Shown: positions 4,413 through 30,439 of the stretch, one piece after another | How positions within the stretch are numbered: the stretch's first letter is position 1 | How the letters are laid out: each line of letters starts with the position of its first letter | Source of the DNA: Clostridium sp. AM30-24 | GTDB taxonomy: Bacteria > Bacillota > Clostridia > Lachnospirales > Lachnospiraceae | Assembly: GCF_003480435.1 (NCBI RefSeq) | Contig: NZ_QUJB01000001.1 | Span: forward strand, 372,001-436,000 | Direction: 5' to 3' | Length of the DNA: 64,000 bases | The notes under the pieces: generated by a model | Told to the model about the DNA's origin: nothing | Seen by the model: only the letters and a program-made list of their open reading frames with translations | Databases searched by the model: none | Translations under genes and position numbers: made by a program

Positions 4413-5411
4413 TCAGGAGATCCAGACTCCGGCTTCCCGGTCGGAACCATTTCCAAAACGATACGTCTTTCCGTCGATCGTTCTCTCTCCGGTTACCATC
4501 GCACCGGATTCATCGAGATAATACCAGGTTCCATCCGGAGACTGGTACCAGCCGGTCACCATGTAGCCGTCCGCATCAAACCGGTACCAGCTTCCGCCGA
4601 TCTCCTTCCACTGGTTCTGACACCAAGAAGTCCCTCTGGCATTCATCACATAACGCCACTTTCCGGTTTTGTCTTCCTCGATCCACGCACCTGAAAATGC
4701 CTGATCTTTCGGAGTACCTCCATCTTGTGATGTGAATCTGGTTCCGGTATAGACGATCCCGGGTCCGGCAACCGCTTTACTCTTCTTTCCATCGCTGTTT
4801 TCTGCTGTCACAAAGAAGGTGTAGAGCTTTCCTTCCTTCATCTGACCGGAAAAATCGATCGTATTTCCACGTTTTACCGTCTCACTCGTTCTCTTTTTTC
4901 CATTCTCATAAAGGGTTACATGATAGGAAACCGCCTTATATGCCTGACTCCACTTTGCTGTCCCGGTACCACTCCAGTCCGGATCCAGAGGAACCCCGAT
5001 CTTTTTATTCATCGGGATCATGTCCACATAGAGCCAGACCTCTTCATTCCCCTCGTATTCTCTCGATACAAAGCGATAGACATCGGACCCTTTGAGGTCG
5101 AAATAGGAGCTTCCCTTTTTCCGGAACTCATACCCGCTGTCCGCAACAAGCCCGATCTGGACACGTGCGCAGTAGGAAGAATTCCAGTTGTCAACATCCG
5201 CCCCGTTGATGACCTCGCAGCCGGTAACTGTGTAGCCTTTTCCCATATTTGTGACCTTGACCTCCCCGGTCTTTGTCAGTTGGGATTCCAGCTTCAGTTT
5301 CACCCGCTCGATCTTCACGGGATCTCCCTCTGCCGCCCACGCGCCTGACGAAAACGTCAGGCACATGAGGAGCGACAGAAAGAATACTTTCCAGCTTTTT
5401 TTCTGTTTCAT
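4413..5411 (-). CDS. Secreted cell-wall-binding protein, last gene of the surface/ATPase operon
   Basis: A 332-aa exported protein with a signal peptide (Lys-rich start, FFLSLLMCLTF core, SGAWA-A cleavage near residue 27). A beta domain related to that of the 1714-2505 protein follows (DSGYEFRKK motif). Next comes an Fn3-like segment (AYKAVSYHVTLYENGKK ... LYTFFVTAENSDGKK), then choline-binding-like wall repeats (GTSWCQNQWKEIGGSWYRF, DGTWYYLDESGAMVTG, KTYRFGNG). The start has GGGAGGAAATAAGATTCC upstream; this SD lies in the last codons of the 3566-aa gene, only 6 bp away. The protein is thus cotranscribed with the F1-like system and is probably its peptidoglycan-facing anchor or adaptor (inference). 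Confidence 0.85.
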   Translation of the reverse strand: MKQKKSWKVFFLSLLMCLTFSSGAWAAEGDPVKIERVKLKLESQLTKTGEVKVTNMGKGYTVTGCEVINGADVDNWNSSYCARVQIGLVADSGYEFRKKGSSYFDLKGSDVYRFVSREYEGNEEVWLYVDMIPMNKKIGVPLDPDWSGTGTAKWSQAYKAVSYHVTLYENGKKRTSETVKRGNTIDFSGQMKEGKLYTFFVTAENSDGKKSKAVAGPGIVYTGTRFTSQDGGTPKDQAFSGAWIEEDKTGKWRYVMNARGTSWCQNQWKEIGGSWYRFDADGYMVTGWYQSPDGTWYYLDESGAMVTGERTIDGKTYRFGNGSDREAGVWIS

Positions 5412-5417
5412 GGAATC

Positions 5418-8400
5418 TTATTTCCTCCCCTCTCTCTTTCTGAGCAGAAGACCAAGGGATAAGAGAATTCCCATCGCAGAGAACGCACCGAAGATCATGA
5501 TTCCGTATTTCTTGTCTTCCACGAAATCGTTGCTCTTTAACTGTGCCTGATCGGCGATCAGTCCCTGAGATGCCATCTCCTTCACCTTGTCGTCCACACT
5601 TGTAAGATCACTGCTCTTTTGAGACAGGTAATCTTTCGCTGTGTAGACCTTGTAAGATCCGTCTGCCGGATTATAGACAGTGATCAGTTTCCTTTCCGTC
5701 ACAGAGCCGGATGTCGGATCGGTGGTCATTCCATCGGCTGCTTCCGCAGATGTTCCGTCGAAGGAGGCCTCAGAAGCCTGTTGTCCGGAAGCTTCAGAAG
5801 AATTTCCAGCGGACTCTCCGGCCTGTTCTCCGTCAGTCTGAGCTGCCGCGTCTGCTGCCTTTCCGGCTTCATCCGCGGAACCTTCTGCAGATGTTCCGGA
5901 GGTCGTATCCTCAGAGGCAGCATTCGAATCTGCATCTTCAAAATCATTCTCCGATCCTGCAGAGTCGGAAGCTGCTGCACCGGAATTGTCCGTATTGCCG
6001 GTCTCTGCGTCATCTGCACGGTTCTCCGGCAGCGCGTTCTGTGCTTTGTCTGATCCGTCTGCAGTCTTCTCTGCGTCTTCCTTCTGCACTGTCAGGGATT
6101 CTGCATTCTGAGCTGCATTCTTCATCTGAGTATCGGCTGCACCGGATTGCTTCGCTGCATCCGTGCTCTCTGATGCATCTTTGCTCTTCGCATCGGCCGC
6201 ATCGGCTTTCACATCGTCCTTCGCCTTTCCGAAGAGACTCCTGATCTTATCCACGATACTGCTGTTTCCGGATTTCTCCTTCTCAGCCGCGCTCTCAGAT
6301 ACAGCGGCTTTCTCTTTTCCGCCATCCTTTTTGTCAGTCGTCTTCTTCTCGGAATCCGGCTTCTCGGAAGCTTTTACATCCTTTTCAAAAGTATCCGCCT
6401 CACGATCCTTCACCGATGTTCCGGAAACAGTATTTTTCTCCGTATTGTCGGAGGTCCTTCCGTTTCTGTCTGTCGTTTCCGTCTTGTCAGCCGTTCTGTC
6501 GTTTTCTCCGTTCTTTTCGGTCTTGTCAGGATCACCGGATGAGGATCCGTCTCCTCCTGCCTTTCCGGAAGAAACAGCCGCATCCCCGTCTCCGGAGGCG
6601 GTTCCCTTGTAGGAAAGGATATCGTCAAGACTTCCAAGTTTTCCGTTGCTTAAGTTCGTCATGAGGTTCACGGATGCCTGATATCCGGAATTGTTGATTC
6701 CGAACCAGCTTCCTAAGTAACTCTCGATATACTGACCCGCGTAATCCGCAAGCGTCAGATCCTCGCCGTTCTCCCAGGAATCCGCCTCCTCAAGCGTAAG
6801 CTCCGTTCCGGTCAGGAAGTTGAAGGCAAATACCTTTCCGTCCTCAAACCGGCCGATCGCGACATGGCTGCTGTCGTTCATATTATCAGCCAGCTCCACG
6901 ATCCCGCGGTTTGTGAAGCTCTCCGGAAGATGGATCGACTCATTTAAGTCATGAAGCATTCCATCGGTTCCGAGAACTGTCAGATACTGGCTGTCCTGAT
7001 ATGTATCTACGAGCACTGCCCCGTAGACAAGCTCCGGATCCGTCTCCAATCCGAACAGGGTTCCGTTCTTCACATAAGCGAGCCTGTCGAGGTCCTCCCC
7101 GTCGTAGTGGATGAACTGGTGGTAGACGGAAAGCTTCTTTCCATCGTATGTAAAGGTATGGACTGCCTTCGGTTCCTCCCACTGAATGTCAGAGAAATCG
7201 CAGTGCGATACGACGCTTCCGCTCTCCACATCCCAGACATCGCCGTTTAAGTCGAGCGCTTTTCCGTCGCGCAGGTTCAGGAAGCTTCCCGCGATCTGCT
7301 TTCCGGACGCACTCCGGATCCCGGAACCGGTCAGGTAATACTGATCCCCGTTCCATGCCATGACGGAGGACACAAGGTCCGTCGCCAGAACATCATAGGT
7401 CTGTGTAAATCCGAGTTCCGGTGCCGAGAGCGTTACGGTAAGCGGCGTACTGTAATTGTACGGCATCGTATAGATCCGGTCGGTCGTGTTGACACTTAAG
7501 ACTTCCCCGGATCCATCTGCAACCGTCATCGTCACTCCGACAACGTCGGGAGCGAGTTCAAACGTGATGGACGCCGGTCCCGAAGCGGATACCCAGAGGT
7601 ACTGCTCGTCGGTAAGATCCCGAAGTGACAACATCGAAGTCATCGCGCCTGTCGGGATCGGAACTCCCCAGAAGCCGTAGGAGCCATCCTCATAGTTGAT
7701 GAGGTTTGTCTGTGTCTGATCCGGATACGGGTAGAAGCTCTCCCCCGTCTTTACATACGGGAAATGTGCCGTATACGTATCATTCTTTCCAGGCTTCAGG
7801 TTCTTATAATCCCAGTAGCTGGAATTCAGGCTCAAAACATTCGTGTAGAACGCATTGGTACCAAACACATTCGCATCCGTAACAAAATACTGGTACGGAG
7901 CAACGGCTGCCGGATCATCGAATTTCGTCGGATCCTTCGCATTTGCATTCAGCTTAAGTTCCGCATACGGTTTTCCGCTTCCGGTGTAATCCTGGATCTT
8001 CGAACCGTTCTCGCCCCAGAGCGGTGTGCCGTTTAATTTCAGTCCGCCCCAGACAGCTGCCTTCGGAGCTGCTCCGTTCACGGTCCGGATCCCCTCATCG
8101 TCAAGAGTCCTTGTCGGTCTTAAATAAGTTGAATCCGTATCTGTGTACTCAGTCGTGTCCAGATAGAAAGTACCCCAGACGGTCGGTGTACTCGATCTGC
8201 CCGTCACGGTTACATCCGAAGTCAGAACGAGATTATTATAATTTTCGCTGCTCAGATAGTCATTTCCGTGGGCAACGACAGCACCCGTCGCATCTCTCTC
8301 CGGATTGCTGTAGGTGAGACGTCCGACAAAAGCGCCTGCCTGCTCAACAGATTTGACCGTTCCTCCGAAGATACCTTCCTTCACCATCGCGCGGTTGTAT

Positions 8401-11400
8401 GAAATGTATCCACGGTTATCGTATTTGTAGTCGTAGAGGATTCCCGCAAATGCACCGGCTGCAGAACCAGTCGCCTCGACATCCGCATTGCAGTTCATAT
8501 ACGTATATCTTCCGGCGATCGCAATTCCGGTGATACCGCCAACCCCCGTGACGCCTTTGACCTTTGTGTTATTGACAACGAAGAAGCTGGCGGCCGTTCC
8601 GGTTCCCTCGTTTCTTCCGGCAATTCCGCCGACACCCATCGAAGTTGCTCCGGTTCCCTGAACTGTACATCCGACAACCGCAACCTGAGAGATCCCCTCC
8701 TGGGCAGATGTATTACCCATGATGCCGCCGATATAGTTTCCGCTTCCCTCGACCGTTGAATCAACGACGCTCGAGTAGTAGATACCGCCACTCTGCCCGT
8801 TTGAAATACCGGCAACGTAGGAAGTTCCGGTGATCACGGACTCTTTTACGAGTGCGCGGTTCACTTTCGCTCCACTCTGGATGATTCCCATCGTGTAGCT
8901 TCCGGTTCCCTTAATATAGGAGCGGTATACCATGGCATCATCGATCCTCGTCCACCAGCTTCCGATTCCGAGGATACCTGCGGTGGTTCCTCCGCCGGAG
9001 ACATAAGTGTACTGCACCTTCGTGTTCGTGATCGGTGCACTGTCTCTCGTCGACTCGGAGAACAGGGAGCCGATACCGCCGGTATAGTTTTTGCCGCTTA
9101 CAAAGACCGGATATCCGCTCTCACCGACCGTAAGGTTTCCGGACGGCACGCCCTGAGCGAGACGTCCGGCGATACCGCCGTTATAACTATAACCACTGAC
9201 ATAGATTCCTTTGACCGAAGCATCTGTAATCGTCGCTTTTGTTCCGCCGACGATACCGCCGACGCCCTCACTGTACGGTGCAACGATCCGGTAGGTAAAG
9301 AGTGTGTCCGATGGAAGACCGTCGAGGGACGTATAGTCCACCGCGTCTCCTTCCGCCATGATGTTGCTGATCGCACCGGTCGAGTAACCGGCAAGACCAC
9401 CAACATAGCTGGACGAAGCAGAAACCGAGATCTCGATGTTCTTTAAGGAAGCATTCGTGATCGTACCTGTGTTCGTTCCGATCATACCGACCTGGGACGC
9501 CTGATAACCGGTAAGTTTTACCTTCTCGAACTCGCAGTTCTCGATCGTACCCTGGTTTGTGGAGACAATACCAAAACCGGTTCCCGCTTTCGTTCCGTTG
9601 TTGATCGCAATATCAGCGAAGCGCAGATTCTTCATCTCCCCGGCGATCACGTTGATCATGGATTCCGCAGCACTCGCTGTGCTGTACTCCTTTCCGCCAA
9701 AGGTGATCGTATACTTTCCGCCGTCGCTCTTTGTCTCACCGACGAGGGAATTGATCTTTAAGCCCATCGGGATCTTTCCGTTCGTTACATACTTGGAAAG
9801 ATCGATATCCCCGGCGATCCGAAAGTTCTCGAAGTTCTGTCCCGCCTCTGTCATCGCAGCATACCACTCTTCCGCGCTGCGGATCGTCCGCGCGATGACG
9901 GTTCCCTCTCTCACGAGGATCTGGATCGCGAGGCGCTTCTCCACACCGCCTTTCTTAAAGACTGCGAATGCCGGGTAGACGGACTGGAACTTCGTCGGCA
10001 GTACATCCGAATACTGGATTCCAAGCCCATCGGATGCCTTTTTAGGATCTGAGGAGGAAAAATCGAGTCCATCCGCCTCAATGCGTTCCAAAAGGAAACC
10101 GTTTCCGCCGTTTTCCGCGTATACTTCAACGTTGTAGACACCGCTGCTCAGCTGATAAATCTCCGCTCTTCTCACTTTCAGGTTTTCATCCGGAAGTTCG
10201 CGCGGGGTCTGATCTGCGAGAATTTCCCCGGAAACATTCTTTAACTGCGGAAGATATCCGTCCTCGATCCGGCAGCCGCTGCTGCCCTCGATATCAAAGC
10301 TGTTTCCGATTCGTCCGCGGTTTCTGAAGAAGTTCTGGGTCAGGAATTCCCCTGCCGCAGAGAGGTAAGTCGCTGTCAGAAGATCGACGGAAGTTCCCGT
10401 TCCGACGATCTGGCCGCTGTAGGCAGCGCCGTTTGTGACTGCACACTGTGCAACACCACGTATATTTCCGTAGATACGGTTGATATTGGAACCACTTCCG
10501 GAGAGGTTTCCGATCGAGATGACATCATCAACCGAGACGTTATCCGTCGCAATTCCCAGAATTCCGCCGAGATCTCCGGTCGAGCTTGTGATATCCGTCA
10601 GAGATACCGCCTCACTGACGTCAGAGCTTCCGGCTCCCACGATCCCGCCGGTGCCGCCAAACGCGGTATTGATCGTTCCGTGGGAGTAAGCGTTTGATAC
10701 AGCTCCGAATGTCTCGACGTATCCGACGAGACCTCCGACTCCGTTCGCACGGACTCCGTTCTTCGCCTCGATATCAAGCCCCGATGCGTAGGAGTTCTTC
10801 ACCGTGAGACCTTTTCCGTAACCGACAAGACCGCCGACCGAAAGGGCGCTGTTTCCGTAGGCTGCTGTCCGGATCGATACATCTTCCATCCGGCAGTCCT
10901 CGACTGTGCTGTACTCAAGGTAAGAAACAAGACCGCCGATGTTGGCCGGCATATCGGAGAGCGTCACCTTCGACGCACGGATATTCTTTAAGGTCGTGTT
11001 GTTTAAAACCTTGCCAAAGATCCCGGCCTGCATGGACTTCGCCTTGTTGTACGTGGAATCATTTGTGATTAGTTCGACATTTTCAAAATTGATGTCTTTG
11101 ATCTCCGCTCCGGATACGACCGCAAAGATCGTGGAGCCGACACCGCTGATATTCTTTACCGTATGTCCGTCACCGTTTAGCTTTCCGCTAAACGGGACCT
11201 TTTCCGTGCCGACCTGCATCGCCGCGAGGTTCTTTCCGGTGAAGTCGAGATCATCCACAAGGATAAAGTTCTCTGCCGGGTACTGGTCCAGATAGAGCCA
11301 ATCCTCGAAGCTTGCGATCTCGCGGTAGAAATCAGCCTCAATATAGTTTCCGTCCTGACCGCAGGCGACAGTCGTCGTCTCGTGGCTCACCGTGTTGATC

Positions 11401-14400
11401 TCGTAGGTAATGCTCGTATAGAGATACTTTCCGGTAAAGGATTTCGGATCGCTGACCTTCACGCGGACAACGTACATGCCGTTTTCTGTATACTGGTCAA
11501 GAACCTCCGTCGTCAGGCCATCGATGCCGATTCCGGTAATCTTCTGCTGGTTGTTGCTCCGGTAGTAGAGGAGGATTTCCGCCTCTTTATTTGTCTGGCT
11601 GACCACACGGCTGCTGACAAATTCCGGAACATCTGCACCCGGTGCCGGCGGCAGGGCGATATTCTCCTGCGCCGTCTCCATCGCATCCGACATATTGATC
11701 CGCGGATAGTATCCGCTCGCGAGCTGGCTCTCGATCGTAAAGGCATCCGGATTCTTGAAAGCCTTCTCATACCAGACACCGTCCCAGAGTCTCTGGACCG
11801 CCGTCGCCGTTCCGAGATCCTTCGGATATACCGCTACGGAACTCATCGAGATATGGTAGAGATCCGTCGCGCGCGCACCGCTGTTGTTGACGCCGACCGT
11901 AGATCCGCCCTTATCGTAGATCTTGTAGACGGACTGTTTTCCGTTTTCATACGTATAATAGTAGGTGTCTCCGACAAAGAAGCTGTTCCGGACGGTACCG
12001 CTGTTTATTCCGACAATTCCGGCAGTCCGGCTCATTGCCCACTCACTGTTGTTGTACTCGTTGACCGTATTGTTGATCACAAAGGTATCCTCGATCAGAC
12101 CGGTCGCCGAGTTTGTATATGCCATCGCACCATACTGACCAGATCCGACCGTCACATCGCCTCCATAGACAACGCTCTCCATGACAACGTCCTTTCCGTA
12201 GACAACACCGCGGCGGATCGTTCCCTGGTTTGTGCAGCTCACGATACCAATGCCACTTCTCGCGTGGAGCTCCTTCTCAAGTTTGATAGAGAAGTTTTCG
12301 ATCACGCCGGATTTATAGTTCGTATATACAAGGAAACCGTTGCTGTAGTTCGGTCTCGTCCGCCCGAGTGACATCGTCATCACGACATTCTGGATCGTTC
12401 CGTAGTTCATGTTGACAAGTCCGCCATCCTGAGAAATCTGTGAAGTCGGTCCTACCGTTCTCCGGTAATTGAATACAAGGTTCTTTACCACACCGGTGCT
12501 CTTGAGCGTTCCGATCACAGATCTGTAGTTGCTGCCCTCCGGGAAGGAAAGGGAATGACCCTGAAAGTCAACCGTTCCGGCAAAGTTCCATACATAGCTG
12601 GAATCCGTCCTCTCGATATCCGCGATGACCGCGAACTTTCCGTTCGGATTTGCATTCAGCTTCGTCCGGAACTCCGTCCAGTTCGAGATCGTATCCATTC
12701 CGGCCTCCGTCGTGAAGTTCACTTTTGAGAGAACGATGTCCTCGTAACCGCGGACACTGATCAGGAGATCGACCTCGTATGTCCAGAATCCCTCACAGTC
12801 AAAGCTCTTTGCCTCCGAGATTCCCTGGTCTCCCGCCGTATCATACGGGAAATCATAGGGAGTCCGGCTGATCTCCTTTAACTTGGAGGAGTCAACGTCC
12901 ATACCGTCCGCTCCTTTTAAGAGCAGGGTGTAAGTTCCGTTCTTCAGTTCCTTCTTCCGGTCGTTTAATGTAACCGTCACGGAAGATTTCCATCCGGATC
13001 CCGCAGCTACAATGGACTCGAGATCAAGTGAACCGGTAATTCCTTCACCCGTTGTAACATAGAGTCTGTTCGGATCCGGGAACGTGTAGTTCGTCTCATT
13101 CTTTCCGCTGTCGTAGTAGACGTTGTAGTTCTGCGCCGTGAACTCAATACGGTAATCCGTATCCATCTTCAGGTTATTGAAACGAAGACTTTCGTACTCC
13201 GTATTTGTCTTGATCATTCTGGTCTCGACAAGGCTTGCCTCCGATACGGAGTAGAGCTTTACCGTGATCGTTCCTTTATCGACGGCATTGTCCGGGTCAT
13301 CGAAGTAGAAGTGGTAGATCTCGATGAAGTTCGAGAGTGTGAACACGCCGTCATGACGGATTCCCGCCGTCTGCTTCAGGGTACGGAGCTGAAGGCTGTT
13401 TGTCGACGCGCCAACGTTGTATTCACTTCCGCCCTGAGCTGCAACAGCTCCGACCGATACCGTGTAAACGGTCATGGAGTCGAACGGATCATCCTGTCCT
13501 TCTCCCTCGCAAAACTGCAGTTCTGCTCTCCAGCCCTTCATGAGAAGCTCCCAGGCATTCGTATTTTCCGTCGGTGCTGTTCCCGTGAGAACGACCTTCG
13601 GGACAGACGCATCTGTCGAATCGTGATCCTGGATCACCATGCTCGCAGTACCGGCCTGCACCGGCACTTTCTCGAGTTCTTTCCTTGAGAGGATCTCCTC
13701 GTTCTTCCATGTCTTTGTATCGGAAGAGATCTCGACCGGAAGGCGCTCCATAAGAGTCAAAAGACCCTCAAGTGTCTTATCTGTATCGATGCGGAGTCCG
13801 ATCGTGAACGAAGAATCCGTGATATCCGCGGAGTCAACGTCCACATACGCGTTTCCGAGAAGGCTGATCGGAGCCGTGTAGACGGAAAGTCTTCCGAGCT
13901 GCATGTTTCTCTGCCAGTTTTCCGTATTTTTATCATTCAGATCATAATCCGCACGGGCAACCATATAGAACGAGCTTCCGGACGGAAGGTTTGTGATCGT
14001 AAACTCATTCGCTGTTCCATCCGTGGAAACTGCCCTGCGGTAGCGCGTATTGATCCCGTCTCCCGTCTCGTCAAAGGCCGGCACATCTTCTCCCTGCTGG
14101 TTGACCACATAGAAATAGCAGTTCTCCATCGCCGCATGGTCCGTGTTCTGGATCTGGACGGAGATCGTCTGGGTCCCGACCGTGTTTCCTGTCTCGCGGA
14201 GTGAAGCTTTCGGCTCCACTTTGCTCGTATGGGTCGATCCCTTTGTGATGCTGTCCGATGTCAGTTCAAATTCATTCCGGAACCGGTCCATGACGCGGAT
14301 CGTATAATCATAGGTCTTATTGGAAGAAAAACCTTCTTTGGAAAGCCAGTCTCCCGCTGTTCCCTTTTTGATATTTCTCACGATCGTACCGCCGACGTTG

Positions 14401-16869: not shown

Positions 16870-17366
16870 GACTGCTCCTCCATATCTTTCAGTAAAAAGT
16901 ACGCGCTGTAAACGATCAGGAAAATTCCGAGGAATCCGAGGATCACCGCAACATAGAGGTCAAACCTCGTCTCCCTCAGGTACCCGCTCAGGACATTTCC
17001 GACCAGCAGGGCGACAAAGATCAGGATGCTGTTCAGAAGATCCCTTAAGAATACGCGTCCGCCGCCTCCGGCGACTGCTTTTGCCGCCGCAAGGAGGAAA
17101 AGGAACACCAGATGCGGCAGCTCCATCTCGACCCGGAAGATCACGGACGAGAGGACGAACAGGAACCCGAGAAGCGATACTGCAAAACAGACCGCCTCCC
17201 GGTCGCTCCGGTTTATGAGAAATCCATAGACGCCGCGCGCTCTTCCGTTCCACGAAAACTTTCTTGTTCCGATCACAGCGAGCAGGGAACCGATGATTCC
17301 CGCCGCAAGCGTCAGCAGTATGAAGTTTTTAAACAGGACGATTCCCGCGATCAGTTCATCTATCAT
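16866..17366 (-). CDS. Five-span integral membrane protein
   Basis: A 166-aa protein with predicted membrane segments at about 8-32, 58-77, 84-101, 110-129 and 136-158. It lies directly after the epsilon-like gene (4-bp gap), with GGGAGAATGAGACT before the ATG. In position and topology it could replace the F0 a-subunit. However, I cannot find the hallmark a-subunit helix with the essential Arg and its flanking Asn/Gln; charged residues here are in loops (for example R104, R108, R131). Either it is a highly diverged a-like subunit that no longer conducts ions, or an unrelated membrane platform. No known family recognised. Confidence 0.7.
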   Translation of the reverse strand: MIDELIAGIVLFKNFILLTLAAGIIGSLLAVIGTRKFSWNGRARGVYGFLINRSDREAVCFAVSLLGFLFVLSSVIFRVEMELPHLVFLFLLAAAKAVAGGGGRVFLRDLLNSILIFVALLVGNVLSGYLRETRFDLYVAVILGFLGIFLIVYSAYFLLKDMEEQS

Positions 17367-17370
17367 AGTC

Positions 17371-17610: not shown

Positions 17611-17638
17611 AATTCCCTCCAACTTGATTCCTCCCTTT

Positions 17639-19783
<2,145 letters not shown>

Positions 19784-19797
<14 letters not shown>

Positions 19798-21130: not shown

Positions 21131-21142
21131 CTTTGCTTCTCC

Positions 21143-21910
21143 TTATATACTGTAATCGAACATCCGGTTTCCGCGGACAACGCGGACTCCCTCGCAGATC
21201 CCTTCATCGTAGACCGTCTCGACCCGCCCGTCTTTTCCGGCACCCTCCGGATTTCCGGTATAGACAGTCGTCTTGTCACTGTAAAGATCCGAGAATACGG
21301 AGGCATACTCGCGGAATCCGCAGGCATCCATCGTACCATTCTCATCAAGATACTGCTCCAGAATCTTTAACTCTTCCTCATCCAGACACTGTCTTAAGAT
21401 CTGCTCCTGCTCTTCCGGATCGAGAGTTGAAAGACTGTATGCAGTTTCGAGCGGAAGATCCGTAAGGATCCTGCCGGCCGCTTTTCCGGTCTCTGCCATC
21501 GGACCCGGATTCAGAGAAAGGATCCCCCGGATCTCTGCGCTTCTGTCCACCGCAAATTCGTTCCGGACATTTCTGTATGCTTCGCCGAAATCTGTCTGTC
21601 CTGTCGATGCCGGCGGCAGCTCCAGACCGGCTGCGGGTGTTTCTGCGACAGTCTGGACCTTCGCCGGATTCTTTGCAGGCGCGTCCTTTTTCATCAGGTT
21701 GACTCCATAGAGCCGCTCTTTTTCTTCCAGTTCTTCAAGCTTTTTCTTTTTTTCCTCATACAACCGGTCAAAGACGGAGAGCTCGCGCATATACCGCCCG
21801 TTGACCTGCCCGGTTACCCGGTCCGATACCTGCCTGATTACCAAAAACATAAATGCGATCATAAGCAGGAGAACCACCAGAACCGCCAGAAATATCATGA
21901 CATACCGCAT
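21143..21910 (-). CDS. Membrane-anchored coiled-coil protein, b/delta-like stator candidate
   Basis: A 255-aa protein: membrane segment about 3-25, then a charged coiled coil about 44-70 (DRLYEEKKKKLEELEEKERL), a Pro/Ala-rich linker, and a helical C-terminal half with DPEEQEQILRQCLDEEELKILEQ. It sits between the c-like and alpha-like genes, exactly where atpF (b) and atpH (delta) stand in bacterial atp operons. Its plan of membrane anchor, coiled coil and helical domain suits a fused stator stalk. No direct b or delta motif can be claimed from sequence, so the role is inferred from position and architecture. AGGTG lies about 8 nt before the ATG. Confidence 0.65.
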   Translation of the reverse strand: MRYVMIFLAVLVVLLLMIAFMFLVIRQVSDRVTGQVNGRYMRELSVFDRLYEEKKKKLEELEEKERLYGVNLMKKDAPAKNPAKVQTVAETPAAGLELPPASTGQTDFGEAYRNVRNEFAVDRSAEIRGILSLNPGPMAETGKAAGRILTDLPLETAYSLSTLDPEEQEQILRQCLDEEELKILEQYLDENGTMDACGFREYASVFSDLYSDKTTVYTGNPEGAGKDGRVETVYDEGICEGVRVVRGNRMFDYSI

Positions 21911-21931
21911 GGTCTTGCACCTGCCTTTCGA

Positions 21932-22253
<322 letters not shown>

Positions 22254-22277
22254 TTTCTCATAATAACCTGTTTCCGA

Positions 22278-24233
22278 TTACTCCCCGACCTTCGTCTCAT
22301 CTTCAGTCCTGATGATCAGAGGCTTGTCCGCCGGGATTGTCTCAAACAGCGGTTCAGCGCTCTTTAAGACGATCTCCGAATTATTTTCGGAAGAAGATCT
22401 GTCCGCGTCATCATTCACCGTTGTCCCGTCCGAAACATTCTGGGAAGAAGCATCCTGGGAAGAAGCATCCTGGGAGGATGTACCGCCGGATGTGCTTCCG
22501 CCAGATGTGCTTCCACCGGATGTGCTTCCGCCGGATGTGTTTCCGCCGGACGTGCTTCCACCGGATGTGCTTCCGCCGGATGTACCGGAGCTTCCGGAAC
22601 CGCTTCCGCTGTTGTAATACGGGTTCTTTGCCGTGATCGTCTTTAAGACAGTCGCCTGACTGCTGTTCGCTGCAAAGATCTGGAGCTCCAGACGGTAGGT
22701 TCTCACATCTTCTCCAACCGCTGCATCAAACCATTCTGTGACTTCACCGTTTGCCGCTTCGCTGACATCGACCTCATTTTCGCTGAGTTCGTTTCCGCTC
22801 TCATCATAGAGAACGGCTCTTGCGCTGTACGCCGGATAATCGTCGTTGATGCTGAGAGCATACTCGATACCGGAGCTCGTGATGGAACGGACGGTGAAAT
22901 CGCAGTTGACCGTCTTCGTCCAGACCCTCATGGTATCCATGACCTTGAAGGAACCTTCGTCCTCATCGCTCTCATCATATTCCGGATAGTAACCGAGTAC
23001 CACTCGGTATTTCGTCTTGGGAAGAAGTTTCTCTGTAAAACGGTAATCACTGTCATCCGGGCTCACAAACGCGTGCGCGATATAATTGTCATCATTCGCA
23101 GAGTGATTTGCCTCATAAACACGCAGCTCGATCACACCATAGTATCCGAACGGGTCGGAAATCGCAAATGAAGTATCAATATAGGAAGAATCACTTGTCA
23201 CCTGTTTTAACTGCATGGACTGGCGTCCTAAGATCGCCTGGTCGGATCCGCTGTTGTCGATACTTCCGCCATCGCCTCCTCGTCCGCCGGATCCACCGTT
23301 TCCTCCTGCTCCGCCATCACCGCCGTTTCCACCGTTTCCACCGGAACCGCCGTTTCCGCCGGACCCACCGATACCTCCGGATCCACCGATACCTCCGGTG
23401 CCTCCGGTACCTCCGGTGCCTCCGTTTCCACCGAGACCGCCGTTTCCGCCTTTACCGCCGAGACCGCCGCTTCCGCCGACACCGCCGCTTCCGCCGACAC
23501 CGCCGTTTCCGCCGTCTCCGCCGCGGATCGTGTAAGAGTAGAGCTTCTGGCCGAGATTATACGGATCTTCCACGACTTTTAAAGAGCCGAGGACCTGACC
23601 GAGATCGACCGTGCGCTCGAGTCCGAGATCCAGTGTTTCATCCTTCACGGTGAATGTGATATCCCCGGTCTTAAAGGATTGTGCATCAAGGATCTTGAGA
23701 TCAAGAAGGTCGTTCATCACATGGACATTTCCGGAGCGGTCGCCCACCATGAATGCCCAGCCTTCTGCCTGAAGGCTTCCGGTGTTGTCGGTGATCCCGC
23801 TTCCGGTCATCAGATATTTCCGGTCTGTCAGTTTGTAAAAGGCCGGTTCACTGAGATCCGTGATCTCATAGCGGGAGTCAAGTCTTTCCACGGTTCCATC
23901 CGGATAAAACCGGTAGCCGCCTCCGTAGACCGTCAGGGATTTTGCCCCCGGATCATACGCAACCGTCTGGCGTCCGAGAGAATATTCTTTCTTATTATCA
24001 TCGACCAGATTGTATCCTTTATTCCAGCTGCGGTATATTTTTCCTTCTGAGCCAATCTCGATCTTTGCGTAGCTGTTGTCATATACGGTCCCACCTGCGG
24101 GCACCGCATATTTCTCCGACTGAGTATTGGCTGCGCTCACGACCCCAACGCTGAACCCTGCAACGGCTGTTGTCACAGCCGCTGCAAAGATTACGAAGGA
24201 CCGCTTTGCTTTTCCTGTTAATGCTCGTTTCAT
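22278..24233 (-). CDS. Exported protein with 29 GGX triplets (polyglycine rod) and Fn3-like domains
   Basis: A 651-aa protein. Residues 12-35 form a signal peptide or anchor with a possible SAA cleavage. A beta-rich head follows (about 36-235) containing KYLMTGSGI, matched by YYLTGSGI in the 3566-aa protein. Residues 238-324 are exactly 29 uninterrupted Gly-Gly-X triplets (X mostly N, S, T, V, I, D), the pattern of polyglycine II helical bundles. An Fn3-like region comes next (LLPKTKYRVVLGYY). A C-terminal tail of GGSTS/GGNTS repeats and a Ser/Asp/Gln-rich end follow, without a sorting motif or membrane span. AGAAGGGGCGACAGAG precedes the ATG, 17 bp after the 2062-aa gene. It is likely a rigid extracellular rod. 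Confidence 0.88.
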   Translation of the reverse strand: MKRALTGKAKRSFVIFAAAVTTAVAGFSVGVVSAANTQSEKYAVPAGGTVYDNSYAKIEIGSEGKIYRSWNKGYNLVDDNKKEYSLGRQTVAYDPGAKSLTVYGGGYRFYPDGTVERLDSRYEITDLSEPAFYKLTDRKYLMTGSGITDNTGSLQAEGWAFMVGDRSGNVHVMNDLLDLKILDAQSFKTGDITFTVKDETLDLGLERTVDLGQVLGSLKVVEDPYNLGQKLYSYTIRGGDGGNGGVGGSGGVGGSGGLGGKGGNGGLGGNGGTGGTGGTGGIGGSGGIGGSGGNGGSGGNGGNGGDGGAGGNGGSGGRGGDGGSIDNSGSDQAILGRQSMQLKQVTSDSSYIDTSFAISDPFGYYGVIELRVYEANHSANDDNYIAHAFVSPDDSDYRFTEKLLPKTKYRVVLGYYPEYDESDEDEGSFKVMDTMRVWTKTVNCDFTVRSITSSGIEYALSINDDYPAYSARAVLYDESGNELSENEVDVSEAANGEVTEWFDAAVGEDVRTYRLELQIFAANSSQATVLKTITAKNPYYNSGSGSGSSGTSGGSTSGGSTSGGNTSGGSTSGGSTSGGSTSGGTSSQDASSQDASSQNVSDGTTVNDDADRSSSENNSEIVLKSAEPLFETIPADKPLIIRTEDETKVGE

Positions 24234-24250
24234 CTCTGTCGCCCCTTCTG

Positions 24251-27200
24251 TTACGGAGTAAATGTGATCGTATCTTTATAGATCTGACCACCATCTTCTT
24301 TCAGGAACTGGATCGTTACCGCATACTGGACATCGTCCTCCGAAAGTTCGATCGGAATTGTCGTCGTATAGGTTGACGTTGTTCCTTTCTGTGTAAACAG
24401 TCCTGTCGTTCCTGCTGATACCGTCTTACTCTCGGTATGAGCTGTACCCTGGCTGTCAACCCAGTTTACAGTCGTCTGGATCATCTTGATGTTATCAAGA
24501 TTATAACCGTTGTATACAAGGATCTGGATCTGGTTTCCTGCATTTCTCTTGATCTGGATGCTGTCGAAACGACCTCCCCAGGTATCCATCGTCTTCTCTG
24601 CAGACTCGTAAGCCGCAAAGCTCTGCTTCTGGGCATCGGACATATTTTCGATCTCGCCCCAGGTAAGTCCCGTCTCGGTTCCCTTGTTCTCCAGATCTTT
24701 TCTCGCATAGATGTGGAGCTTGTATTCTTTGTTTGAATCAAGGCTGCCGATCTTATCTGTCGTGGAAACGGTCACAATACCGTCCGAGACATTCTTTTCC
24801 CAGACACACATCTGATCATTGTTTTCAACGATCTTGTTGTCGCTGTCGTAGAGTGCGATCACATATTTACCTTCCGCAAATGCCTTGTTCGGATCCTGCG
24901 GGGTAACCGAGATGCTGAGTCCCTGTCCGTTGTTTACCGGTCTCGTTTCTACATAGAAGCCAGGATCGATCAGCTTATCCCAGTTGATCGTTGCAAAATA
25001 ATTTCTGTTTCCGATCACGGACTCACCATTTGCATCCTTCGCACGGATATAGAGCCGGTACTGGTGTCCAGGCTGCATCAGTGTGTTCTTTGAGAGATCG
25101 ATCTTTTCGGTCATCTCAGACATGTAGCTTCTCGCGCGGCCGTCCTTGTCGATCCATGTTCCATCGCTGTTCTTTGTATAGCCCATTGCCGCAAGGATCG
25201 CGTCATTGCCTGCCACAACATGCTGCAGTTCAACACCATTTACGACTTCTTTCAGCTCATAAGTGATATCGAAGCCCTCTGTCAGGGACAGACCGTAGGA
25301 AACATTCACACTCTTGTCTGTGTAGCTTACATAGTTGATATCCGATGCTTTAATTCCGGTGATATCCATTCCGTCCATCGTCTGGACAAAGTAGATCGCT
25401 TCGCTGTTCCTGTCATTATCAAGAAGCTCCTTTAAGGTATCGCTTCCCATTGCCTTTCCAAGAACGTGGATCTCATACTCGGTATTCTGGCTGAGACCGG
25501 TGATCTGGCTTGTATAGTACGCAGCCTGATCTCCCTCGATCGGGATCTTTTCCTCAAAGACCGGATCTCCTGTCGTCTCACCTCGTCTGTAGACGCGGAC
25601 CACGATATATCTATTTCCGTCCTCTTCTTGCGCCAGAAGATCACGGCTGTTGGTACGGAACTGGAGGCGGCAGGTTGTAAGCGCTGTCGTTCTCATAACA
25701 TCATTGATCGTCGGACTTAAGGTTCCAACGGTCACAGACATCTGGTTTGCATCCGCATCCCTTTCGAACATGAGTTTTTTCTCCACCTTGAGAAGCGGCT
25801 GGAGTGTTCCGCCGACTTCCTTGTAACCGGAAGTTCCGAGACGGAGCTGGAGGACCTGTTTATTGAATTCCTCCTCCTTCTGTTCATCCGTATAGGAGGA
25901 CGGGAAGTTATTCGATATATTCCGGAAGTTCAGAAGAATGTCTCCATCTTTTTTATTCTTCTTCGCATCCTCCGGCCAGAGACTGTCGATGTCTGTCACA
26001 TTTCTGACTGTATACCTTGCCATCCACGGAGTGGACAGAAGGTACGGATCCTTGCGGACAAGATTGCCGTTTGCGTTGATCGTATAGTACCATGCCATAT
26101 ACTGGCTGCTCTCACCGTTGTCCAGGGACTCCACGATATAATTTCCGGTCGTGCCTTCCGCGCCGTTCTCATTGACCGGTGCATTCGTCAGATAGTACTG
26201 ACCTCCGAAGCCGGAATCATACTGAAGGTTCACTGTAAAGGTTACCTTCTTTCCGCTCGTAATTCCTTTTAAGAGGGAGAGATCATAACCCACATACTGG
26301 TTTCCTCCGTCTGTCTTTCCGGTAAAACCAGCATAGTAAGAGGTATACGGAGTTCCGCCTTCCGGTGTTCCTGTCACGGTTACGCGGCTGACGCGGTTCA
26401 GATCGATCGCATTATTCTTTACGATAAACTCAAAGCGCACCGTATTGGAATTGTTTGCATGTGACACACGGATAGCAAGGTTGTTCTTTATATCGGAAGG
26501 TTCCATCGGCGGCGTATACATATGGGACGCCAGCGACAGGGTTGCGGAGGTCGGTTGGCTGCCGTTCTCCATGACATCTTTCTCATTATAGAGGACCTGA
26601 TTCATCTTGATGGTGTAGACCTGTGTGGCATCTCCCATCGCCATCTTCATGATCCCGTAATCGCCATCTGGTTCGATATAAGAAAGTTCATTTGTTGTCG
26701 GTGAAATTCTCTTTGCACCGAGGAATACTTCGCCGAGTGTGGCATCGTCCGTAATATCCGCCTGTGCGAGTATGGATGATCCATCCACATCATCGTAGTG
26801 GTATTTCCACTTCACTCCGCCCTTCTCGATCTTTTCGATATACATCTTTACGTCCGGAGACTGCTTCGGTGTGTCGACAACTCCCGATGAGAGCAGGGTG
26901 CCCTTACTGAAGCTTCCTGTCACATTGTTCGGGAAGATATAGTTGGAGTTGTTTCGGAAGGTCAGTCTCGCCTTGTATGCAAATACATAGTGCCATCCTC
27001 TCGTGACGTTTGAGTTTGGTCCCGCAAAGATCGAGACGGTACCGTTCGACGGACTATTGAAGTACGAAGCAGCTCCACCGTTCGTGTTGCCGACCTTCTC
27101 CTCCTCGCTCATCCGGAGTCCCCAGGTGTTCCATACGGAATCCATCGTGCTCGTCACGCCGTTTACCGGATCCATAAAGAAGATATTGATCGACGGGAGC

Positions 27201-30200
27201 GAACGGTCATTCGCATTGACCGGAAGCGTAAATTTCAGTTTCGGGGAGTTATCCTTGCCCCAGTCTGTCCACTCGGTCGGATCATTTCCCTTATCTGTAT
27301 CGGAATCGTTCTCATATCCGAGAATATCCTTCTCCGTCATTACATAGTAAGTGACAGAGTTCGCAAGTCCGCCTTCGTTGTTGTAGTTCGCGCAGAGGTT
27401 ATATCCGACGATCGTGTCGTCCGCAAGGTTATCTTTTGTCGTTCCCTGCAGATAGGAGTTTGCCTTCGCGTTCGTGATGGGAGTCACAGTCACACCGGAA
27501 GTCAGCGGGCTCGGGAAATCCGGAACCTTCTCATCGTAGCTTACGGAGTAGTAAGTGGTACTTCCCGTCTCGAACGGAAGCTGGTTCTCATAATTTGACA
27601 GGTTCTGGGCAGAATCTGCCGGGTAGGAGTAGTTATATGTATAGTCGTAAACGCCGAGGATCGCGATCGTATATTTCGATGCTGTCAGCTCTGCGGAGGA
27701 AAGACCGAAGGTCTGGGCGCTGATCTTTAATGCGTCCTGACGTCCGTTCTCGCCCCAGTACTTGCTGACGAAATCACCCGTATACGGTTTGCTGTTGTCC
27801 GTGCTATCGATATAGACGTCAACCGGACCGGCTCCCAGCGGAGTTCCGGAGGTGTTGGCACCTGTATAGATCGCAGCACGGACCATCTTGACCGATTTCG
27901 TTGAAAGATTTGCAGTGTCTTCTGTATCGGTATCTTTACCGAAGTAGACCGATACACCGACGTTCACAGAGGAGTCCGGAACAACGTTCACGGAGATCGG
28001 GCTGTGCTCGCCTGTACTTACAACACAGTCACCGAGATATGTCCTCGTGAAATTCTTTGTCACCGGATCCTCAACGTAGCCCCATGCGGAGATACGGTAG
28101 CTGGACTTTGTCTTTAATCCGTACTGGAGGATCGGAATGTTGTATTTTCCTTCACCATCTGAGTAGTTGGAGTCCTTGGAGTTTAAATTGATCTTCATCG
28201 TTGAAGTGTAGTTTCCGCTGCTCTCGATCATGATCTCCAGCGGATGGTCCTCTGATGAAAAGATCGTTCCGTACTCCTTCGGGTCGATGGTAAGAACACC
28301 GTCGAGAGTTGTGTTCTTATCGACTGTAGTCTCATTCCAGGTATAGTAAAGGGAAACCTCACCCTTGGAAGTCATCATGAATCCGTCGGACGGATCACTC
28401 GTAACTTCAACATTCTTTTCGTTATCGTAATAATTCATTGTGACGCGCACAATGTACTGGTGACCTTTTTCGATCTTGTTATTTCCATCTTTTGTCGGTC
28501 CGATATAGAGGGAGGTATTTGGCTTCGTGGAAGTCAGGGTTTCGATCAGTGCCCCCCTGTTCTCCGGATCCAGGATCTCCCAGGTATAACCGGTAACTGC
28601 CTCATCCTCATCCTGTACTTTTACAGAGAGATCAAAGTAGGTCTGGCTGTTTGCGTAGCCGGCCGGTTTTCCGTCAAATTTCGGAGTCTTCTTTAAGGTC
28701 TTCCATGTCTGGGTAGTACCGCTCGTCTTCCAGACTCCGCCCACATAGGACTCAAGTTTTACACTGTAAGTCTTATCACTCGTAAGAGTATTATTTCCGC
28801 CGTTTAAGGCTGTAAAGTCAGAAGCCGTGTCGAGTGTTACGAGATTGCTGTGATCTGCAAGCTCGGTCGCACTGACCTCTTTTCTCATGATCTCTTTTCC
28901 CTTGGAATCGAGGATCGTGATCCTTGCCTGAGTCGCTTCGGAGTAATCCATTCTCTCAAGAGTTACAACGAATCCATCTTCCTTCGCATACGCCTTATCG
29001 AGGTTTAATCCCGAACTGTCTGTATAGAAGGTACGGTTGATGTAATCCCTGCTTCCCGTAATATTCTTTAACAGATACCCGGATTTTACGACCAGACGGT
29101 ATTCCTGATCCGGACTTAAGTTGGAACATGTCACGGTGTAGGTCTCATCTGCCGCGAAGTTGATCCTCGTGTTGTCCGCTTCCCCACTTACCTCAAGCTC
29201 GACCGGCTGGCCGTTCTTATCGTAAATGTAAACGCTGCCTTCCTGACCGTTTAAGACGTCGTCCTCATCGGTTACAGTGAAGGTTGCCTCAAGAGTACCG
29301 GCTGTCAGCGTGAATTCCGTGATCTGGAAGGATGCCTGTGCCTGGGTCTCCGGATTGTTTAAGCTTCCGTTCGTACCCTTTTTTCCACCGGATCCGTTGG
29401 AACCGCTCTGACCGTTGGAACCGCTTCCGCCATCGGAGCCATCATCTCCGCTGCTTCCTTCATCGCCGTCCTGGCCTTCGTTTCCATCTTCACCGTCTTC
29501 TCCGTCTTCGCCGTTGTTTCCGATCTTTCCTTCTTTTCCTTCGTCGCCCTGCTCACCAGCCGCACCGGTCTCTCCGGCTGCGCCTGTCTCTCCGGCTGCA
29601 CCTTCCTCACCGGACTGACCGTCAACGACCGTAAAATCGAATTCCGGTGCAACCCAGTCCTCTGCAGACTGGACCTGAATGTTATCATCCGCATCCAGAA
29701 GCATCTCCTGAAACGTCATCCGGCTGTTGCCCTGGGCATCAGAAATAATCTGGTCACCGAAGTCATAGCGGACTCCATTGCCCAAAGTGATGTATGTACC
29801 ATCTGCAACGATCTGGTACTGTGCTGTATCGTTTGCAAGACAGATGATCCCCTGTTCCGGGTACTCCGCCTCGAGCCATCCGTCGATCGCCATCTCTTCT
29901 CCGGAAGGCAGATGCAGCGATGCGCCGTTCGAGTAGACCATAAAACGGTCATCACCGATCTTCCAGATAAAGTTGTTGAAGGAGATCTCATTTCCATTAT
30001 TTGTCACGGAGAATCCGCCATTGGATGCCGCGAGGACCGTATTCTTCTCCACACTGTAGTGGTTGACAAGTCCTGTATTGACATCATCCAGGTTCACGAG
30101 CACACCGTTTGATGTGGCACTCGCCGAACCATCCGCGTAGTGGAGAAAGCTCTCCTTTCCTACGCTGCGCTTTGTTCCTTCGATGTCACGAAAGACAAGC

Positions 30201-30439
30201 TCGTTCGGGAATTTTCCTTTTACCTTTGTTCCACCCGAAAAATAGTACGATTCCGGAGCTGCCTCTTCGCTCCCGCTTTTCTCGCTTTGCGTACTTTGCC
30301 AATCTGACGACAGAACATAGCCATCCGCCGCCATCGAGGATTCTCTCGCTGATGACATAAAGATCCCGGCTGATAATGTTCCTGCGGCGGCAAGCAGCGT
30401 CGTTGCGCCGATCGCAATCAGTTTTCCGTATTTCGACAT
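24251..30439 (-). CDS. Giant exported protein with 29 collagen-like GXX triplets and Fn3-like domains
   Basis: A 2062-aa first gene of the operon. There is an N-terminal membrane segment at about 7-27 and a beta-rich head to about 265, with DDRFMVYSNGASL placed like the LTGSGI motif of the 651-aa protein. Residues 274-360 are 29 uninterrupted Gly-X-X triplets with no proline. The first 20 or so triplets are rich in Glu/Asp (GEE, GET, GED) and the last in Ser/Asn/Gly. A long series of Fn3-like or related beta domains follows to the C-terminus (LSPDQEYRLVVKSGY, LSQNTEYEIHVLG). No LPXTG and no C-terminal membrane span. GAGGTGAGAAAAA precedes the ATG. It is probably a trimeric collagen-like stalk carrying a long domain string at the cell surface. 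Confidence 0.88.
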   Translation of the reverse strand: MSKYGKLIAIGATTLLAAAGTLSAGIFMSSARESSMAADGYVLSSDWQSTQSEKSGSEEAAPESYYFSGGTKVKGKFPNELVFRDIEGTKRSVGKESFLHYADGSASATSNGVLVNLDDVNTGLVNHYSVEKNTVLAASNGGFSVTNNGNEISFNNFIWKIGDDRFMVYSNGASLHLPSGEEMAIDGWLEAEYPEQGIICLANDTAQYQIVADGTYITLGNGVRYDFGDQIISDAQGNSRMTFQEMLLDADDNIQVQSAEDWVAPEFDFTVVDGQSGEEGAAGETGAAGETGAAGEQGDEGKEGKIGNNGEDGEDGEDGNEGQDGDEGSSGDDGSDGGSGSNGQSGSNGSGGKKGTNGSLNNPETQAQASFQITEFTLTAGTLEATFTVTDEDDVLNGQEGSVYIYDKNGQPVELEVSGEADNTRINFAADETYTVTCSNLSPDQEYRLVVKSGYLLKNITGSRDYINRTFYTDSSGLNLDKAYAKEDGFVVTLERMDYSEATQARITILDSKGKEIMRKEVSATELADHSNLVTLDTASDFTALNGGNNTLTSDKTYSVKLESYVGGVWKTSGTTQTWKTLKKTPKFDGKPAGYANSQTYFDLSVKVQDEDEAVTGYTWEILDPENRGALIETLTSTKPNTSLYIGPTKDGNNKIEKGHQYIVRVTMNYYDNEKNVEVTSDPSDGFMMTSKGEVSLYYTWNETTVDKNTTLDGVLTIDPKEYGTIFSSEDHPLEIMIESSGNYTSTMKINLNSKDSNYSDGEGKYNIPILQYGLKTKSSYRISAWGYVEDPVTKNFTRTYLGDCVVSTGEHSPISVNVVPDSSVNVGVSVYFGKDTDTEDTANLSTKSVKMVRAAIYTGANTSGTPLGAGPVDVYIDSTDNSKPYTGDFVSKYWGENGRQDALKISAQTFGLSSAELTASKYTIAILGVYDYTYNYSYPADSAQNLSNYENQLPFETGSTTYYSVSYDEKVPDFPSPLTSGVTVTPITNAKANSYLQGTTKDNLADDTIVGYNLCANYNNEGGLANSVTYYVMTEKDILGYENDSDTDKGNDPTEWTDWGKDNSPKLKFTLPVNANDRSLPSINIFFMDPVNGVTSTMDSVWNTWGLRMSEEEKVGNTNGGAASYFNSPSNGTVSIFAGPNSNVTRGWHYVFAYKARLTFRNNSNYIFPNNVTGSFSKGTLLSSGVVDTPKQSPDVKMYIEKIEKGGVKWKYHYDDVDGSSILAQADITDDATLGEVFLGAKRISPTTNELSYIEPDGDYGIMKMAMGDATQVYTIKMNQVLYNEKDVMENGSQPTSATLSLASHMYTPPMEPSDIKNNLAIRVSHANNSNTVRFEFIVKNNAIDLNRVSRVTVTGTPEGGTPYTSYYAGFTGKTDGGNQYVGYDLSLLKGITSGKKVTFTVNLQYDSGFGGQYYLTNAPVNENGAEGTTGNYIVESLDNGESSQYMAWYYTINANGNLVRKDPYLLSTPWMARYTVRNVTDIDSLWPEDAKKNKKDGDILLNFRNISNNFPSSYTDEQKEEEFNKQVLQLRLGTSGYKEVGGTLQPLLKVEKKLMFERDADANQMSVTVGTLSPTINDVMRTTALTTCRLQFRTNSRDLLAQEEDGNRYIVVRVYRRGETTGDPVFEEKIPIEGDQAAYYTSQITGLSQNTEYEIHVLGKAMGSDTLKELLDNDRNSEAIYFVQTMDGMDITGIKASDINYVSYTDKSVNVSYGLSLTEGFDITYELKEVVNGVELQHVVAGNDAILAAMGYTKNSDGTWIDKDGRARSYMSEMTEKIDLSKNTLMQPGHQYRLYIRAKDANGESVIGNRNYFATINWDKLIDPGFYVETRPVNNGQGLSISVTPQDPNKAFAEGKYVIALYDSDNKIVENNDQMCVWEKNVSDGIVTVSTTDKIGSLDSNKEYKLHIYARKDLENKGTETGLTWGEIENMSDAQKQSFAAYESAEKTMDTWGGRFDSIQIKRNAGNQIQILVYNGYNLDNIKMIQTTVNWVDSQGTAHTESKTVSAGTTGLFTQKGTTSTYTTTIPIELSEDDVQYAVTIQFLKEDGGQIYKDTITFTP

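Follow-up and report, generated by a model that had tools for sequence, protein, structure and literature searches.

Background

The closest described systems to the one reported here are F1-like ATPases of mycoplasmas. The G1-ATPase of Mycoplasma mobile (Type 2), associated with gliding, has F1-like alpha, beta, gamma and epsilon subunits encoded in a surface-linked cluster without an a subunit, and passages of two papers propose that it turns ATP hydrolysis into surface movement (PMC11864180, PMC12994834). The Type 3 F1-like X0 ATPase of the MIB-MIP system is encoded in one block with membrane and surface proteins. Here we analyse a block of minus-strand genes at positions 4413..30439 of a 64,000-nucleotide stretch of DNA from Clostridium sp. 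AM30-24 (contig NZ_QUJB01000001.1, positions 372,001 to 436,000 of the forward strand; the whole stretch is hereafter the window), in which genes for an F1-like head, a ring and a stalk are flanked by genes for surface proteins. Its predicted anatomy is that of a rotary ATPase without ion coupling, joined to a surface assembly, and we consider it best read, with a probability of about 0.55, as an ATP-driven mechanical motor acting on the surface assembly of the same gene block.

With the G1-ATPase the block shares F1-like alpha, beta, gamma and epsilon subunits, the lack of a recognised a subunit and the link to the surface; unlike it, the block has a c-type ring, an anchored b protein with a probable delta domain, the N-terminal helix of alpha and the gene order of an ordinary atp operon, and encodes no 12-span protein. 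The Type 3 enzyme likewise resembles it in combining ATPase, membrane and surface genes, whereas no homologue of the Type 3 12-span protein, protein 2 or protein 5 was found here, and the ring and stalk are kept. The alpha-gamma-beta-epsilon order, c preceding b, the ring motif, the RNP loop and b with its probable delta domain are common to ordinary F1Fo, from which the block differs in having no recognised a subunit, no ring carboxylate, a shorter alpha C-terminus and epsilon, and surface genes on both sides. Like the N-ATPase (alternate F1Fo), it can stand as a second F-type operon beside the ordinary one; its proteins nevertheless stay far under the N-ATPase cut-offs of TIGR03305, TIGR03324 and TIGR03322, with 426 of 752 (beta), 356 of 750.5 and 13.8 of 130.85 (c) bits. 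Type III secretion and flagellar export ATPases are F1 relatives with a use other than ion transport. Unlike in these, gamma, epsilon and the ring are kept here and the AtpD and AtpA scores are higher, with beta under the secretion cut-offs (206 of 604.75 bits for SctN, 202 of 587.45 for FliI clade 3). In its predicted anatomy the block lies between ordinary F1Fo and the mycoplasma forms: the ion site is gone, the ring and stalk are kept.

Literature searches of an open-licence PubMed Central library (subscription papers and preprints were not covered) listed no account of such a block outside mycoplasmas, in agreement with the original prediction, which knew of none in Clostridia. The block is a candidate equivalent outside mycoplasmas, present in the named strains Kineothrix alysoides, Chakrabartyella piscis and Bifidobacterium colobi. 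It offers a ring devoid of the known ion site in which to test how F1 torque might pass across a membrane to a surface structure; if the reading is true, it shows a route from an ATP synthase to a motility or adhesion machine.

A conserved block of ATPase and surface genes

The gene cluster of the window comprises the following open reading frames (ORFs), listed from 5' to 3' in window coordinates:

24251..30439, minus strand: coll, a surface protein of 2062 amino acids (aa) with an N-terminal anchor and, behind it, a beta domain close to the membrane, a collagen-like stretch and arrays of fibronectin-III-like domains
22278..24233, minus strand: rod, a 651-aa anchored surface protein
21932..22192, minus strand: c-like ring subunit (PF00137, 35.6 bits)
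21143..21910, minus strand: b-like stalk protein with an N-terminal membrane helix, a coiled region and a helical part
19784..21130, minus strand: alpha subunit, N-terminal helix kept, Arg finger R359
19015..19797, minus strand: gamma subunit (PF00231, 87 bits)
17639..18997, minus strand: beta subunit, catalytic residues intact
17371..17622, minus strand: epsilon-like subunit without the C-terminal helical hairpin, assigned by position and a weak full-length colinear profile alignment
16866..17366, minus strand: 5-span membrane protein (TM166)
16141..16869, minus strand: single-pass protein (g242) with the shared beta domain
5418..16118, minus strand: giant 3566-aa surface protein with an N-terminal hydrophobic segment, a fibronectin-III-like array, GLUG-like repeats and a C-terminal membrane helix
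4413..5411, minus strand: choline-binding-repeat wall-binding protein (PF01473, 45.9 bits)

All twelve tightly packed minus-strand ORFs that had been claimed for 4413..30439 are present, and the arrangement of ATPase and surface genes is confirmed as real. The successive spacings from coll to the wall-binding gene are 17, 85, 21, 12, -14, 17, 16, 4, -4, 22 and 6 base pairs (bp); the described tight packing and overlaps stand, and the one gap put at about 100 bp measures 85 bp, between rod and c. Above curated Pfam cut-offs are alpha (250 bits) and beta (221 bits) to PF00006, together with gamma and c at the scores listed. The b-like protein reaches 16 bits to a b-type model, under its cut-off, coll has a collagen match of 39.7 bits, and the epsilon-like, 5-span and rod proteins have no Pfam match, nor the single-pass protein any above cut-off. 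In NCBIfam, beta narrowly passes the AtpD model (465 bits, cut-off 462.85), and alpha, with 421 and 396 bits, stays under the thresholds of the AtpA models; because these scores lie barely above or below the thresholds, the head is F-type but diverged.

Relatives were collected by a pattern search from an alpha alignment, confirmed by tblastn, over one genome per species from 84,980 species; 150 loci with an alpha relative were found, and the best 80 were studied (loci are denoted by L numbers). Their carriers are Lachnospiraceae, other Clostridia, Bacilli, Erysipelotrichaceae, Coriobacteriales and one Bifidobacterium, and so span Bacillota and Actinomycetota. From group to group the eleven genes keep one order (coll, rod, c, b, alpha, gamma, beta, epsilon, 5-span, single-pass and giant protein), and its retention across the 80 loci excludes chance. 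In 59 loci the available upstream flank is 7 kb or longer; coll precedes the ATPase genes in 56 of them and lies downstream in the other three, so that it is present in 59/59; rod occurs in 57, b in 59 and c in 57, one of the latter (L065) being hidden by an overlapping ORF. Where at least 6.5 kb downstream was available (61 loci), gamma and beta are found in all 61, epsilon in 60, the 5-span protein in 60 (fused forms counted), the single-pass protein in 56 and the giant protein in 50. That the surface genes belong with the ATPase genes as one block is supported by the coll homologue in every locus with enough flank; the linkage foreseen for other genomes is borne out, and no cluster without surface genes occurs among those 59.

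The block is rare and patchy. Scans with the alpha profile (E up to 1e-140, the centre genome counted each time) detected it in 3/391 genomes of the class of the L001 genome, 4/296 of the class of the L013 genome and 1/246 of the phylum of the Bifidobacterium genome. Because it is uniform in distant genomes yet rare, its distribution suggests transfer between genomes as a unit. One genome contains two alpha copies (G001, contigs C2 and C17), two metagenome-assembled genomes hold two (L008, L010) and three (L042, L045, L049) of the 80 loci, and no relative was found in viral contigs. Among flanking genes named by eye are a resolvase-like and an EF-G-like GTPase ORF upstream in L002 and, downstream of the single-pass gene in L048 (17730-21344), ORFs of 93 to 413 aa that resemble WXG100-type secretion substrates.

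An F1-type head and a c-like ring subunit without the ion site

The window beta has GGAGVGKT, GERSREG and D241, and alpha has the Arg finger R359. In the family, the Walker A motif reads GGAGVGKT in 71/72 betas and GGAGIGKT in the remaining one, GERSREG with the catalytic Glu occurs in all 72, and the alphas keep VSRLGG in 69/72 and the GD-K-TGKT P-loop in 65/72. The claim of intact hydrolytic residues thus holds for the window and for the family, and because these motifs are intact the head should, as judged from its sequence, hydrolyse ATP. Part of the DELSEED loop is conserved; the window sequence reads EELSQQD. The N-terminal segment of alpha, with its helix, is present here; in ordinary enzymes this segment binds the peripheral stalk. 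The epsilon-like protein aligns over its full length with the first domain of ordinary epsilon (P 0.0097 against a profile of 15 ordinary sequences). In seven Bacilli-type loci (L013, L015, L018, L047, L048, L054 and L055) alpha carries a long acidic repetitive C-terminal tail, for a total of 562 to 1090 aa, that ends Glu-rich and then Val-Ile, Val-Leu or Thr-Ile; this tail is possibly a tether.

The ring subunit has lost the residue on which ion transport depends:

21998..22000, minus strand: codon for Thr65, at the position of the essential ion-binding carboxylate of c

In an alignment of 77 c-like sequences (the window and 76 of the 80 loci) this column holds Thr in 39, Ala in 24, Ser in 7, Val in 6 and another residue in one, and Asp or Glu in none. 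Apart from an Asp one column away in L018, the helix carries no carboxylate in any of the 77. The predicted loss of the c ion site is upheld by comparison with ordinary c subunits from 18 carrier genomes, 19/19 of which have Glu there. Other features of c are conserved, namely the glycine motif in 76 or 77 of 77 and both the RNP loop and a C-terminal Asn-Pro in all 77. The RNP loop of c meets gamma and epsilon in ordinary enzymes, and the termini of c face outward in ordinary rings; because of the latter, the invariant Asn-Pro would lie on the outer face of the ring. None of the twelve window proteins matches PF00119, the a subunit family. The 5-span protein was considered as a diverged a subunit and rejected, since its profile shows no match to 17 ordinary a sequences (P 0.29), and the earlier statement that no clear a gene exists is retained. 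Chakrabartyella piscis CP092441 (L075, L114) has an ordinary atp a gene at 632 kb, some 11 kb ahead of the point (643.9 kb) where the locus analysed, which contains the block, begins.

The original prediction also found no delta gene, and this we revise, as the b-like protein probably ends in a fused delta-like domain:

21146..21427, minus strand: residues 162-255 of the b-like protein, a delta(OSCP)-like domain at its C-terminus, by hhalign to ordinary delta

The b C-terminus aligns from one end to the other, over 94 columns, with the C-terminal part of ordinary delta (hhalign, P 8.2e-5), as against P 0.056 to 0.71 for unrelated profile pairs. The b-like protein as a whole matches the ordinary b profile weakly (P 0.012 over 42 columns), and 11/37 b-like members touch Pfam DUF4446 (best E 0.0033). 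Homology of the b-delta protein to mycoplasma protein 2 (P 0.31) or to GliD (P 0.24) was also considered and rejected, as neither matched. A hypothesis mentioned in one paper derives GliD from a b-delta fusion (PMC11864180).

The surface module

Within the surface proteins the following parts were delineated:

29717..30424, minus strand: membrane anchor and shared membrane-proximal domain of coll, residues 6-241, from profile matches to the single-pass and rod proteins
29360..29620, minus strand: collagen-like G-X-Y stretch of coll, residues 274-360
23604..24113, minus strand: membrane-proximal beta domain of rod, residues 41-210, modelled by AlphaFold2 with block means of 91-98 in the predicted local distance difference test (pLDDT)
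23262..23522, minus strand: polyglycine GGx stretch of rod, residues 238-324
22614..23219, minus strand: two fibronectin-III-like (FnIII) domains of rod, approximately residues 339-540, from Foldseek

The AlphaFold2 model of rod consists of an N-terminal helix, the beta domain, a low-confidence glycine stretch and the two FnIII domains, which Foldseek matches to FnIII tandems (best E 1.2e-7). Profile comparisons link the surface proteins with one another: coll and rod are alike over their first ~500 residues (coll 3-522; probability 99.6), the membrane-proximal domain is common to the single-pass protein and rod (93.2) and to coll (91.7), and FnIII-like arrays are common to coll and the giant protein (98.5). 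The giant protein perhaps carries the shared membrane-proximal domain as well. The stretches that led to these proteins being called fibre-forming are optional, and fibres as a constant feature were accordingly rejected: G-X-Y runs of at least 8 occur in 28/55 coll homologues and are missing in 27/55, while GGx runs of at least 6 occur in 36/65 rod homologues and are missing in 29/65. The giant proteins of five extended loci measure 3261 to 4423 aa (that of L186 counted from an internal start) and have a C-terminal membrane helix in 5/5; L008 and L009 have shorter giant ORFs that end inside their loci without such a helix. Each surface protein looked at begins with a hydrophobic N-terminal anchor of the ordinary kind.

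One fused ORF encodes the 5-span and single-pass proteins in ten loci (L020, L022, L023, L035, L040, L042, L044, L045, L046 and L049, the last cut by a contig end). Scored by profiles built without them, the fusion halves give E 5e-29 to 2e-5 for the 5-span and 2e-58 to 2e-42 for the single-pass family, and the AlphaFold2 model of the L020 fusion (mean pLDDT 91.4) shows helices followed by an all-beta domain. In nine of the ten (all but L049) the fused gene is followed by one whose product, of 451-549 aa, has matches to the giant as well as to the single-pass profiles and is a possible link between the two families. Foldseek against the PDB returned no match with E < 0.06 for the 5-span/single-pass model. 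The VIA-align rows for this model concern mostly its helical part, residues 10-204, with the beta domain barely covered, and the names in both lists, some of them toxins, were dismissed as chance hits without meaning.

Relation to the F1-like X0 ATPases of mycoplasmas

The original prediction regarded the block as a Bacillota counterpart of the mycoplasma machines, and this is too simple. By the tests run, the block is not a mycoplasma F1-like X0 ATPase, because the ring, the b stalk and the N-terminal helix of alpha are kept and none of its membrane or surface proteins finds a counterpart among the X0 proteins compared. The alpha N-terminal segment, present in the family, is absent by eye in 15 Type 2/3 alphas, and passages of two papers report the helix as absent in Type 2 (PMC11864180) and in Type 3 (PMC12994834). 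The neighbouring genes were compared with profiles of 11 Type 3 clusters and two Type 2 clusters (proteins 1 and 2 only for Type 2), four of the 17 mycoplasma stretches (L168, L169, L170 and L184) having been left out as their seven-gene order was not recognised. In this set the c, b, epsilon, 5-span, single-pass and rod proteins have no convincing profile match among the X0 proteins, the lowest P value, 0.0074 over 30 columns, coming from the pairing of c and protein 5 of Type 3, and the next being 0.021. The giant protein and Type 2 protein 5, the large protein 5 of the G1-ATPase, were scanned by hmmsearch only; the best E of the giant protein with mycoplasma proteins was 0.078. As a separate observation, among the ORFs of six stretches the single-pass profile matches one mycoplasma epsilon-like protein (L171, E 7.3e-6); the next match has E 0.29, and comparison of the single-pass and epsilon-like profiles gives P 0.014.

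A joint alpha-beta FastTree phylogeny with 21 of the 72 family pairs (two of 19 ordinary loci, L101 and L116, omitted for incomplete alpha or beta) separates the family, the ordinary enzymes (mycoplasma Type 1 included), Type 2 and Type 3 as distinct groups. Its two halves disagree on where the family belongs. In the beta half the group joined first by the family is Type 3 (0.956), with Type 2 following less firmly (0.632); in the alpha half Type 2 and Type 3 join each other (0.988) and the family falls outside ordinary plus Type 2/3 (0.595). An approximately unbiased (AU) test on 30 of 109 alpha-beta pairs, with 5000 replicates, too few by the program's own warning, gave p 0.44 for the family with Type 2/3, 0.55 for ordinary with Type 2/3 and 0.11 for the family with ordinary, with all four topologies in the 95% set and none rejected. 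Common descent of the family, Type 2 and Type 3 from an ancestor that had already separated from ordinary F1Fo has on its side the position of family alpha and beta outside the ordinary group, the beta half of the tree, the AU value and a match between family and Type 3 gamma (P 2e-6). The grouping in the alpha half, the equally good AU value of the topology that it favours, the want of convincing matches to X0 proteins, and the ring, anchored stalk and alpha helix kept here and absent in the mycoplasma types all speak the other way, and we regard such descent as less likely than not.

Proposed mechanism and alternatives

In the mechanism that we propose, the alpha3beta3 head would be held by the b-delta stalk while ATP hydrolysis makes gamma and epsilon turn the ion-inert c ring. 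The turning ring, with its Asn-Pro on the presumed outer face, would transmit torque to an assembly of coll, rod, the single-pass and the giant protein and so move or remodel it; this assembly would extend across the wall to adhere to, or act on, what surrounds the cell. As to the biological use, adhesion or a gliding-like movement can be guessed at by analogy with the gliding motor of Mycoplasma mobile. The original prediction held that ATP hydrolysis moves, assembles or remodels surface fibres; the residues needed for hydrolysis are intact, and the movement is a step that we infer. A fuller account, to which we would give somewhat less than even odds, is that of a purely mechanical rotary motor that discarded the ion path, kept head, shaft, stalk and ring, drives giant arms through the Gram-positive wall by means of an inert ring, and moves between phyla as a unit.

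Several observations weigh against the mechanical motor. The contact between the ring and the surface proteins is inferred. L002 and L003 have no c, rod or single-pass gene and may thus represent a ringless form. In 11/61 loci no giant protein was found, and in the five of them whose following genes were read (L015, L018, L048, L061 and L070) those genes look unrelated; the N-terminus of the giant protein compares weakly with the single-pass protein (probability 45). The delta match has a probability of 61 only, and 2/37 b-like members touch PF00213 (best E 0.045). The epsilon alignment is no better than chance pairs elsewhere, which go down to P 0.0074, and for this reason the position after beta is the better argument for its identity. 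An ordinary atp operon had been expected elsewhere in carrier genomes; of 30 genomes drawn from the 80 loci, 18 have an ordinary a and delta elsewhere, and in 12 no ordinary F-type a or delta was recognisable, V-type ATPases not having been searched. All 12 (G007, G009, G012, G015, G019, G021-G025, G027 and G028) are metagenome assemblies, 11 with sizes of 1.3 to 1.8 Mb, and the absence may or may not be real.

The giant proteins encoded with the ATPase also raise the possibility that it assembles, unfolds or exports surface proteins in the manner of FliI/SctN instead of moving structures already completed. The F1 relatives include the Type III secretion ATPases, their stator protein is a b-delta-like fusion, and beta scores ~200 bits to FliI/SctN models. 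Yet beta scores 465 bits to AtpD against 206 to SctN, the surface proteins have the ordinary N-terminal anchors noted above, and gamma, epsilon and a c-type ring are kept; we know of no secretion ATPase that has these in this form. Export seems unlikely to us. Another alternative, a residual ion pump whose ring has a non-canonical site and whose a subunit, highly diverged, is the 5-span protein, could appeal to the occurrence of that protein in 60/61 loci and to the five or six spans of a-type subunits; it is very unlikely in view of an ion-site column with a carboxylate in 0/77 sequences, a helix otherwise devoid of one except for the neighbouring Asp in L018, and the P value of 0.29 between the 5-span protein and ordinary a. 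It is also conceivable that the machine runs in reverse or as a sensor, with external force on the surface arms changing or driving the head and so reporting or storing mechanical load. A full rotary architecture without an ion path would permit this in principle. No positive evidence speaks for it, the epsilon-like protein lacks the C-terminal helical hairpin, which has a regulatory role in epsilon, and we give it hardly any weight.

The wall-binding gene and other features of the window

The wall-binding protein had been counted as the twelfth gene of the operon. It is indeed present in the window, but it is probably not part of the conserved block: no such gene was seen after the giant gene in 5/5 extended loci, in which ORF ends were judged by eye, and the gene at 4413-5411 is probably a local, lineage-specific addition. 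A second choline-binding-repeat protein is encoded at window positions 1714-2577 (minus strand), and its N-terminal part resembles the wall-binding protein by eye. Just downstream of the operon, at 3519-4004 (plus strand), lies an ORF of 161 aa without a Pfam match. As weak hints on transcription, the first gene is preceded by five promoter-like sites (both strands counted; shuffling predicts 1.8), and the search for a terminator-like site at the 3' end of the operon gave none. Elsewhere in the window, a T-box leader occupies positions 47945-48216 (minus strand, 113 bits).

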